Source: Leptospiraceae bacterium | GTDB lineage: Bacteria > Spirochaetota > Leptospiria > Leptospirales > Leptonemataceae | Assembly (NCBI GenBank): GCA_026418015.1 | Contig: JAOACE010000009.1 | Location: 219,087-283,086 of the forward strand | Direction: 5' to 3' | Length of the DNA stretch: 64,000 bases | In this document: one piece after another, positions 8,146 to 11,141 of the stretch | Layout of the letters: each line of letters opens with the position of its first letter | Numbering within the stretch: the stretch's first letter is position 1 | The notes under the pieces: model-generated | What the model was told of the DNA's origin: nothing | The model's input: only the letters and a program-made list of their open reading frames with translations | The model's database searches: none | Position numbers and translations under genes: made by a program

Positions 8146-11141
8146 ATATTGACAATACTACCATCTTCAAACTCCACTTCGTAATTCCCCTCTTGTAGAG
8201 GGGCAAGGGGAGTTATTCTCTTAATCCACTTACCTGTTAGGTTTGATAATGTTTCTGCAATGTCTATATTTTCGTACAATTTACTTAAATCTACTTTTAC
8301 TTTATTGTTTTTATAATCGATTTCTAATGCGCGAAGCATTTTTTCGTCTTTCATAAACACATATTGTTCATAAACTGATTTATTGCCTACAATAAGCATA
8401 TCGTGATTTTCGTAAACGGTATTCGCCAATGTTTCTTCGTATTGTTCCAATTCGTAGTATTTGAAAAAGCCGCCGCCTTGATAAATCCCCTCTCTTAGAG
8501 GGGATAGGGGTGTGTTATCCCCCTCTTGCAGAGGGGTGTCAGACGAAGTCTGACGGGGTGTTCTCAATTCTTTGCTTATTCCTGATTTATCATAGGCCAA
8601 AACCTTTTTCATTCTTGGCAAAACAACGGTGTAAAAATGCTCTCCCATTTCTACCCCAAGCCACTTTCTGCCGAGTTTATGGGCTACTGCTGTTGTTGTG
8701 CCGGAACCTAAAAAATAATCAAGAATCAAATCCCCTTGCCCTGAAGTAGAGTCAATAACTCGTTTTAAGAGTTGCTCTGAATTTTCAGTTCTAAATCCCC
8801 AACCAGAAGAATAACCGGGAATATCTATCCAAAGAGTATCAATCCCAATTTCTTCGGATGGCAAAACAAGATACTCCGGCATACCTTTCGTTTTTTTACC
8901 TCTTACATCAATATATTCTGCCTTTTCATTTATTCTAATTCTTCCCTCGGCATACATTAGATCTACTTTTTCCTGCCCAAATTTCCAATTATGATTCGGT
9001 CTAGGATAAAACAATCTTCCTTCCACGCTAATCGGGATTGAAGATTTACCCCCTGATTCTAGTGAATGCCAATATGCTTCTCTTTTTTGAGCTAACTTTT
9101 TGTATTGAGGATAAAATTTAAACTTTTCACTATTAGAAAACCAAAATAATTGATCAGTGCCTGATGAATACTGTTTTGACTCTTCTTTCATAAAACCCAA
9201 CTTTGTAATTCTTTTTACCTGAAGTTCATTCCTAAAATTCTCCTTTCCAAAAATCTCATCCATCAAACATCTAACAATCCAATTGCCGTTATAATCACAT
9301 CTTACAAAAATACTTCCTTTTTCATTTAGCCATTCTCTTGCTATTCTCAATCTATTTTCAAGAAGCGTTGCCCAGTTGGCATCTTTGTAGTTTGTGCGAT
9401 ATAAAAACTGGTCAGAAGAATCTAAATTAAACGGCGGATCAATATAAATTGTCTGCACTTTTTCCTTAAATTTCGGCAGGATTGTATTGAGTGCCTGATA
9501 GTTTTCGCTCTTTATAAGCCAGCCGTCCAGGGATTTGTCTAAATCATCAAATTGGCTTAATATCTCAAGTTCCAAATCTTTGAAATATTTTGTATCAATA
9601 GGTAAGTGTTTATACTTTTCTGAAAGCCTTTTACCCATCAAATCTTCTTCAAAAACATCACTAACCCTAAAGCTTTCATCTACAATACCAAGCTCCTGCC
9701 ATTCTTTTATCTGTTCGTTTATATTTGGGTGATTGAATATTTTTTCCACCAAATTCCCCTCTTGTAGAAGGGTTAGGGGTGTGACATTCCCATCTCTTAG
9801 AGGGGTTAGGGGTGTTAATTCTGTCTCCAAAAACTTCATCACCCCTTCAATATTATTCAATACATCTTCAGCTCTTACATGATAGACTTTTAGTCCTAAA
9901 CTTTTCAAATATTCATCACGCTCGGCATCATATTCCATCTTTTCGTTATGACTATCACCATCTATTTCCACAACAACTCCAAGTTCTTTGCAATAAAAAT
10001 CCACAATGTAATTGCCTACTATTTTTTGCCTATCAAAATCTAATCCCAAAAATTGTTTGTTCCTTACTTGCTTCCAAAAAATAATTTCAGCCAAATTACC
10101 TGCTTTTCTTAATTCACGGGCTCTTTCTTTGAGATTTGGATTGAATGGTAATTCATACCATTTGGGAACACCCCCAGCCACTCTATCAGAAGAAGATAAA
10201 ACTCCCCCAACCCCTCTATCAGAGGGGAGGTTTTGGTAGATTCTATCCAACGTAATCACATAATTAGAATTCTTCACAAACTTCGGCTTGTTCCAGATCT
10301 TCACCAATTCATCTTCAAATTGACTCACAAAATCTATTATCTTAAATGCAATATCCTTTAATATCTGTAATTGATTTACTCTATCGGCTGTCCATTCCTT
10401 CGCCCCATCCCAAAAATACTGATAACTCCACAACTTAAACTGTTCTTGTAAAAAACTTTTTGCATTCTTATTTATAAAAAAATCTACTTCGCTCTGTTTT
10501 TCAAATATGCGAAATGCTCTTTCTAATTGTTCTTCGTCAATCTTTATCTCTTTTTTCTTTAGCTCTTTGAGTATATCTTCAGTTTTTGTTACTCTCCCTT
10601 TTTCGGAATAATAAACATTAAAAACTATTGTCTTATCTTTTTGTATTTCTTTTAGTTCATAAATCAAACTGCGTTTTTCGTTGGCTTTCTTATTTTCTAT
10701 CGTCGCTGCATCAAAATAAAACTTATATCCATCAAACTCAACTGGCATGCTTCTAAATATTCTATCTGTCTTTACATAATAGAGCATCTGCGTCTTCCAG
10801 AATAAAATGACGTCTTTGTCGTCCGTATAAACCTTTTCATAAACATTGTTATGAAATGGCGTAGAATTAAAATAAATAGAACCGCTTTCGGAAAAATATC
10901 TAATAAAAAAAGAATAGAGTTTATCGAATAGCTCTTCCCTAAAAGAAGGATATTGTTTTAATGCTTTATCAATATCATCTTTTAATATTTTTTCAATTTT
11001 GGAATAGTAATTTGACTTTATTTTCATTAGATTTACAAATCCGCCTTGTCCTTCGATTTTGGCGCCGATAAAAACATCTTGTAATGCGTTGTAAAATTTT
11101 TGTTCTTTGGTTCCGTTTTTTGCCATAGGGATATCCTCCAA
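8097..11141 (-). CDS. mod: Type III DNA methyltransferase Mod with internal DUF559 insertion and several in-frame palindromic repeats
   Basis: TIYIDPPFNLDSSDQFLYRTNYKD; GDLILDYFLGSGTTTAVAHKLGRKWLGVEMG; GGGFFKYYELEQYEETL; C-terminal DYRLIKPLIWWE. Confidence 0.9.
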   Translation of the reverse strand: MEDIPMAKNGTKEQKFYNALQDVFIGAKIEGQGGFVNLMKIKSNYYSKIEKILKDDIDKALKQYPSFREELFDKLYSFFIRYFSESGSIYFNSTPFHNNVYEKVYTDDKDVILFWKTQMLYYVKTDRIFRSMPVEFDGYKFYFDAATIENKKANEKRSLIYELKEIQKDKTIVFNVYYSEKGRVTKTEDILKELKKKEIKIDEEQLERAFRIFEKQSEVDFFINKNAKSFLQEQFKLWSYQYFWDGAKEWTADRVNQLQILKDIAFKIIDFVSQFEDELVKIWNKPKFVKNSNYVITLDRIYQNLPSDRGVGGVLSSSDRVAGGVPKWYELPFNPNLKERARELRKAGNLAEIIFWKQVRNKQFLGLDFDRQKIVGNYIVDFYCKELGVVVEIDGDSHNEKMEYDAERDEYLKSLGLKVYHVRAEDVLNNIEGVMKFLETELTPLTPLRDGNVTPLTLLQEGNLVEKIFNHPNINEQIKEWQELGIVDESFRVSDVFEEDLMGKRLSEKYKHLPIDTKYFKDLELEILSQFDDLDKSLDGWLIKSENYQALNTILPKFKEKVQTIYIDPPFNLDSSDQFLYRTNYKDANWATLLENRLRIAREWLNEKGSIFVRCDYNGNWIVRCLMDEIFGKENFRNELQVKRITKLGFMKEESKQYSSGTDQLFWFSNSEKFKFYPQYKKLAQKREAYWHSLESGGKSSIPISVEGRLFYPRPNHNWKFGQEKVDLMYAEGRIRINEKAEYIDVRGKKTKGMPEYLVLPSEEIGIDTLWIDIPGYSSGWGFRTENSEQLLKRVIDSTSGQGDLILDYFLGSGTTTAVAHKLGRKWLGVEMGEHFYTVVLPRMKKVLAYDKSGISKELRTPRQTSSDTPLQEGDNTPLSPLREGIYQGGGFFKYYELEQYEETLANTVYENHDMLIVGNKSVYEQYVFMKDEKMLRALEIDYKNNKVKVDLSKLYENIDIAETLSNLTGKWIKRITPLAPLQEGNYEVEFEDGSIVNIKDLDYRLIKPLIWWE
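8184..8213. repeat. In-frame palindromic repeat unit in mod (encodes TPLAPLQEGN)
   Basis: ATTCCCCTCTTGTAGAGGGGCAAGGGGAGT; CCCCTCttgtAGAGGGG stem. Confidence 0.8.
8486..8563. repeat. Two tandem palindromic repeat units in mod, second with nested GTCAGACgaaGTCTGAC hairpin
   Basis: CCCCTCTCTTAGAGGGGATAGGGGTGT and CCCCTCTTGCAGAGGGGTGTCAGACGAAGTCTGACGGGGTGTT. Confidence 0.8.
9753..10229 (-). mobile_element. Putative DUF559 endonuclease-domain insertion in mod, bounded by two palindromic repeat units on each side in opposite orientation
   Basis: 477 nt = 159 codons in frame. Encodes LPSDRGVGGVLSSSDRVAGGV-[PKWYELPFNPNLKERARELRKAGNLAEIIFWKQVRNKQFLGLDFDRQKIVGNYIVDFYCKELGVVVEIDGDSHNEKMEYDAERDEYLKSLGLKVYHVRAEDVLNN...]-ELTPLTPLRDGNVTPLTLLQEGN. 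Removing it joins YVITLDRIYQN to LVEKIFNHPNINEQIKEW. Confidence 0.75.

Follow-up and report, generated by a model that had tools for sequence, protein, structure and literature searches.

Palindromic triplex-type units that bracket DUF559 within a bacterial mod gene: candidate ends of a small mobile element

The window (i.e. the whole stretch of 64,000 nucleotides analysed here) contains a DNA methyltransferase gene, mod, that is interrupted in frame by short palindromic sequences, and this raises the question of what those sequences are and how they came to lie inside a coding region. The gene holds seven copies of one palindromic unit, and four of these bracket a DUF559 domain in inverted orientation. 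The individual features are the following.

8097..11126, minus strand: mod, a type III-like N6/N4 DNA methyltransferase and the host gene; open reading frame, Pfam N6_N4_Mtase (6.6e-32) and homologues
9756..10238, minus strand: in-frame block in mod (units, DUF559, units), missing from five relatives
9822..10133, minus strand: DUF559 (PF04480), in frame within mod, conserved residues intact; Pfam 7.8e-30
8187..8213, plus strand: triplex-type unit, short form, CCCCTCTTGTAGAGGGG-CAA-GGGGAGT; missing in homologues
8487..8513, plus strand: triplex-type unit, short form, CCCCTCTCTTAGAGGGG-ATA-GGGGTGT, in frame as TPLSPLREG; missing in homologues
8520..8561, plus strand: triplex-type unit, long form, with HP1 CCCCTCTTGCAGAGGGG, HP2 TGTCAGACGAAGTCTGAC as second loop and third strand GGGGTGT; same design in other phyla
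9756..9782, plus strand: triplex-type unit, short form, CCCCTCTTGTAGAAGGG-TTA-GGGGTGT, in tandem with 9789-9815; repeat D2
9789..9815, plus strand: triplex-type unit, short form, CCCATCTCTTAGAGGGG-TTA-GGGGTGT, inverted with respect to 10201-10227; repeats D2 and I2 (83% complementary)
about 10168..10194, minus strand: decayed second unit in the orientation of 10201-10227, TCTTCTGATAGAGTGG-CTG-GGGGTGT; 33-bp spacing repeat D12
10201..10227, minus strand: triplex-type unit, short form, CCCCTCTGATAGAGGGG-TTG-GGGGAGT, HP1 outward and tail towards DUF559; repeat and unit analysis

The mod reading frame as listed extends over 8097-11141 (1014 aa) from a TTG start, but the ATG at 11126 is a better fit to the homologues. 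A Pfam search of mod returned N6_N4_Mtase, DUF559 and MTES_1575 only, and the Hint splicing domain was not found; with the splicing domains missing, an intein or intron was ruled out as an explanation of the insert. The AlphaFold model of DUF559 has a pLDDT of 90, and its Foldseek matches are 3hrl (a DUF559-type protein from N. gonorrhoeae), the homing endonuclease I-Bth0305I (catalytic domain, E 1.5e-4) and Vsr. The residues D52, E63, D65 and H69, and the others conserved in the family, are all present in the window copy. DUF559 is thus predicted by modelling to be a small nuclease with a Vsr/I-Bth0305I-like fold of the PD-(D/E)XK type. A model of the whole Mod protein, based on five sequences, has a mean pLDDT of 41. 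We note that the 3′ end of mod (..DYKFIxPLIWWE stop) occurs as three direct repeats (6100-6149, 7319-7368 and 8100-8150), standing after mod, after an MNT-HEPN-like pair (7432-8093) and after the ATP-binding-type gene at 6154-7311; it looks as though each cassette put in at the end of mod had brought a copy of its tail.

A total of 199 units, from 80 DUF559 loci in >10 phyla and from the window, have one common design. The first hairpin (HP1) is CCCCTCCn3GGAGGGG or CCCCTCTn3AGAGGGG, and is followed either by three nucleotides (TTA, CAA, CTA etc.) or by a second hairpin (HP2) such as TGCCCGAAGGGC or TGGCAGGCGAAGCCTGAC. The unit ends in a G-rich tail, GGGGTGG or GGGGTGT, which fits the purine arm of HP1 by the rules of triplex formation (G·G-C, T·A-T or A·A-T triads). 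Arm and tail co-vary across phyla; GGAGGGG occurs with GGGGTGG 97 times and AGAGGGG with GGGGTGT 34 times, while the two crossed combinations are found once each. The units make 6.62 of 7 triads, compared with 5.98 after random re-pairing of the tails (no overlap in 500 trials, 70 loci), where the unit search had set the tail letters partly by its pattern and the weight lies on the co-varying positions only. The HP2 stems also co-vary, with 83 of 84 cells Watson-Crick and several pair types among 21 distinct 36-nt units. By their sequence the units are the BoxC/PIT/TM intrastrand triplex motif of the purine type. Triplex formation has been demonstrated for the E. coli motif (PMC4666352), and folding of the present units into this form is predicted.

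In the window, a count by hand gives 7 of 7 triads for the units beginning at 8187, 8487, 8520, 9789 and 10201, and 6 of 7 for that at 9756; the second loops of the short units are TTA, TTA, TTG, CAA and ATA. A first-pass annotation had pointed to palindromic units in mod at 8184-8213 and 8486-8563. Both are present and in frame, the second at 8484-8561, and they belong to a larger family than had been noted. The former is a 10-codon insert encoding TPLAPLQEGN that includes the unit at 8187-8213 with its palindrome CCCCTCTtgtAGAGGGG. The latter is a double unit, the second of which (8520-8561) contains GTCAGACgaaGTCTGAC and has an 18-nt hairpin as its second loop. This nested hairpin had been read as an insertion into, or growth of, an earlier unit, but it is rather the normal long form, as the HP1-HP2-tail arrangement recurs across phyla and co-varies. 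Translation of the units gives an open peptide, TPLxPLxEGN or similar, and of 19 cases in which units are arranged in tandem within long open reading frames, 17 have a spacing that is a multiple of three. In one methyltransferase-like protein (L122, 3700-4730) DUF559 is flanked on either side by long in-frame arrays of 42-nt units, which encode NNSPLLEGTQGVFS-like peptides.

Comparison with relatives indicates that the inserts in mod are recent relative to the gene. Five Mod homologues, four from bacterial genomes (L080, L081, L082 and L083) and one from a viral contig (L273), are without the DUF559 block (about aa 302-462), the double unit of ~26 aa and the single unit of ~10 aa, and in each the flanks are continuous and the frame is kept. 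The four bacterial relatives are 58-73% identical overall and up to 82-85% in the N-terminal part; L080 is from the same genus. The sites are marked by the motifs NYVITLDRI/(L/I)(V/I)EKI, SGISKE../GGFFKYY and GKWIK.I../EVEFEDG, the first reading NYVITLDRI-xxxx-(L/I)(V/I)EKI or similar where the DUF559 block is absent. The proposal that hairpin DNA had been added to the gene with no change of frame is therefore borne out by the proteins with and without the peptides, and holds for all the inserts in mod. The insert sites differ in length from one Mod homologue to another, which makes it probable that they are linkers or loops. In another Mod (L121) the linker after VITLDRI, the site of DUF559 in the window, carries a different repeat-like peptide, LSARHCEERSDEAIS, suggesting a permissive hot spot. 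The Mod of L085 (G114), which is beside DUF559, was rejected as a further case; it has a different insertion and no hairpin flanks.

The association of the units with DUF559 extends well beyond this gene. Hairpins are found on both sides of DUF559 at 54% of the 80 loci, compared with 0.5% of control window pairs. The inverted-flank score was ≥16 at 52 of the 80 DUF559 loci and at 2 of 585 controls, about a third of the DUF559 loci falling below this threshold. Within the phylum of the window, 13 of 28 DUF559 genes have hairpins on both sides, against 1 of 30 GIY-YIG genes. Where units lie ≤400 bp from DUF559 the orientation with HP1 outward and tail inward predominates, by 119 to 52. The first-pass annotation had treated the flanks of DUF559 as something separate from the units in mod; the flanks exist, but they consist of these same units, inverted, which is the key to their identity. 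The DUF559 genes of N. gonorrhoeae (NGO0050 type; L205) and Pseudanabaena (L202) also lie between hairpin units. Inverted-repeat flanks scoring ≥16 were seen for 4 of 30 small GIY-YIG genes (L211-L240), which is above background.

Occurrence by genome follows the same pattern. At least 10 unit matches were found in 19 of 72 genomes with DUF559 and in 2 of 224 without it (296 genomes of the phylum; Fisher 4e-11, a value that ignores kinship), and the corresponding figures for a reversed-pattern control were 3 of 72 and 7 of 224. The two unit-rich genomes in which DUF559 was undetected are G138 (86 matches) and G055 (16 matches). G138 (e.g. L241-L269) is an exception in which another partner nuclease is a candidate.

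In one genome (G037) a full element is accompanied by smaller ones. Its DUF559 gene is enclosed by ATCTCCCCTCCTGGGAGGGGTTGGGGGTGGGTT and AACCCCTCCGCGGGAGGGGAGAA. Left and right ends of this kind recur at six or more further places, for the most part in the same order, around roughly 15-65 nt from which DUF559 is absent. An autonomous element and miniatures derived from it would be expected to stand in this relation. In the tree the DUF559 of this genome lies beside that of a Brevinematales genome (L175), with zero branch length, on which ground the phylum is probably Spirochaetota.

E. coli offers a parallel. Its ycjD gene is a DUF559, placed between sapF and fabI and followed by BoxC-type units; that of K-12 (L207, 2539-3096) has such a unit downstream, and recognisable units near ycjD are found on its 3′ side only. 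The gene is present in 3363-3364 of 5426 complete E. coli genomes. In 59 chromosomes taken evenly down the ranking, there are 13-29 unit places in the 37 with ycjD (that of ycjD itself included) and 1-14 in the 22 without it, a comparison that is confounded by lineage; the higher number with ycjD is in the direction expected if DUF559 spreads the units. Genomes lacking ycjD still have some units, and in these a block of efflux genes adjoins fabI.

The explanation that we prefer, with a probability of roughly 0.6, is that the units belong to a small REPtron-like mobile element, either as its ends or as solo copies, and that DUF559 would be its mobility or homing nuclease; we infer both the cleavage and the mobility. 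The element would consist of a DUF559 nuclease gene with a triplex unit on each side, the second inverted relative to the first, and the G-rich tail of each unit could fold back as a third strand on HP1. DUF559 would recognise the unit when it is extruded or single-stranded, and cut there, and the cut could allow the element or a lone unit to be copied to new sites during repair or replication. With open reading through the units and a spacing that is mostly a multiple of three, insertions in the linkers of genes could survive in frame, leaving DUF559 as an extra domain. In the window, one element would have entered the Mod linker after NYVITLDRI, and solo or tandem units would have entered two further sites. 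A wider proposal is that DUF559 is a new class of mobility enzyme acting on triplex or hairpin ends, driving BoxC-type elements throughout the bacteria, which could enter proteins in frame without splicing, essential enzymes and restriction-modification subunits among them; this we put forward tentatively, at somewhat less than even odds.

The units might alternatively spread by some other route, either by slippage or template switching at hairpins or through a transposase encoded elsewhere, DUF559 having been captured between inverted units as recombination cargo. The many units in G138 and G055 and the persistence of units in E. coli without ycjD are what this would predict, the tandem arrays in the open reading frames of L122, L130 and L137 look like local amplification, and E. 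coli loci with these motifs are unusually rearranged (PMC4666352). Yet a single nuclease family, and not the GIY-YIG genes, is bracketed in >10 phyla, the mini-elements have the two distinct ends found on the DUF559 element, and in its order, and DUF559 is nearly always present where units are abundant. We therefore regard DUF559 as a mere passenger as unlikely, although this is the most serious competitor of the mobile element.

A further possibility arises from the proteins in which DUF559 is found. In-frame copies occur in HsdR (6), HsdS (2), type ISP (2), MmeI, Eco57I-type and N6_N4 methyltransferase proteins, in Mod (L121, by homology) and in one methyltransferase-like frame, with HsdM-like and helicase-methylase proteins added when hosts are named from sequence and not by Pfam. 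Most in-frame hosts are thus restriction-modification genes, which counts against the mobile element in that fusion of domains would predict the same. DUF559 could then be a working Vsr-like nicking or restriction domain of these systems, the hairpin stretches being linkers or scars of domain shuffling; the Vsr-like fold would suit such a role, and one paper reports on a methyltransferase of Caulobacter, in cells where a Vsr-like protein is naturally expressed (PMC12907096). However, the hosts also include MetH, where the activation domain is split, LipA (at the N-terminus) and acetyltransferases (at the C-terminus), and Pfam domains of MmeI and ISP are split in the same way. Closely similar Mod proteins have DUF559 at two different places, that of L121 being 71% identical to the window copy but located elsewhere in the protein. 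Moreover, free-standing genes between hairpins make up most copies, and this mod also carries solo units that lack DUF559. A restriction-modification role as the source of the whole arrangement is accordingly improbable. The DUF559 tree, built on few columns, requires 18 changes of host where the minimum possible is 6, and in it the window copy groups (98/94) with a DUF559 from a different host gene, also a methyltransferase, and not with the DUF559 of the other Mod. In one HsdR (L130, 2489-6895) GIY-YIG and DUF559 are both present as extra insertions, along with tandem unit-encoded peptides.

Within the genome of the window the units are confined to mod. CCCCTN7AGGGG with zero mismatch has four matches in the whole genome and the hairpin-plus-tail pattern has three, every one within mod, and the reversed pattern has none; because both patterns are restricted to this gene genome-wide, the palindromes are not due to chance. 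A search of the whole genome (2.9 Mb, 97.9% complete) found neither units nor DUF559 outside mod, so the dispersal that the first-pass annotation had anticipated was not seen. Its suggestion that palindromic elements like those of Rickettsia (RPEs) pepper the genes of this genome with no partner gene is very improbable indeed: in-frame palindromes missing from relatives do fit it, and RPEs are the classical precedent (PMC3733652), but no copies lie outside mod, unit sequence and triplex co-variation fit the BoxC/PIT/TM motifs, and the units flank DUF559 in inverted orientation. Since there is no further unit copy in the genome, mod most likely arrived by horizontal transfer already carrying the element and units; the direction of that transfer we infer.

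The BoxC/PIT/TM motifs are known from E. coli and >260 genomes, where the second loop is T-T-A or C-C-G and units also occur as inverted pairs (Holder et al. 2015, PMC4666352, citing Hoyne and Maher). They are abundant in Enterobacteria and Cyanobacteria, and in E. coli have been known since the 1990s, yet their origin and mechanism are stated to be unanswered (PMC4666352). The units described here resemble them in having a hairpin of C-run and G-run, a short second loop and a G-rich third strand, and the known motifs are dispersed and occur as inverted pairs. They differ in that the E. coli motifs are intergenic with no link to a mobile element described (PMC4666352), whereas the present units are in frame, have a long form and bracket DUF559. 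Among openly accessible papers we found none linking DUF559 to these repeats. Such a link makes the origin of the repeats testable, as E. coli K-12 has both ycjD and the repeats. BoxC/PIT/TM motifs are present in hundreds of genomes, where they mark unstable loci, and DUF559 may explain their spread. DUF559, a family with no assigned function, gains a concrete hypothesis, and the link would account for the unusual peptides and added nuclease domains that recur among annotated proteins.

RPEs share with the present units the placing of palindromic DNA in frame within open reading frames. They are reported as CGTC-tagged hairpins (PMC3733652), and so have another sequence and tag; they have no known partner gene and are dispersed, where here a single gene is affected. 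The Vsr-like homing endonucleases (I-Bth0305I; EDxHD class) resemble DUF559 in predicted fold and in having their gene inside other genes. DUF559, by contrast, is found without intron or intein, at many unrelated sites, and is flanked by its own repeats. The closest parallel in arrangement is with the REPtrons (i.e. the RAYT-REP system), in which a small mobility gene stands between short hairpin units that are inverted relative to each other, and solo or paired units are the non-autonomous relatives (PMC3733652, PMC3116915). There the mobility gene encodes an HUH tyrosine transposase and the units carry a GTAG tag, whereas here the gene is DUF559, the units are of the triplex type and GTAG is absent. 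The element is thus not a REPtron, sharing the arrangement but neither the HUH transposase nor the tag, although it may work in a similar manner.
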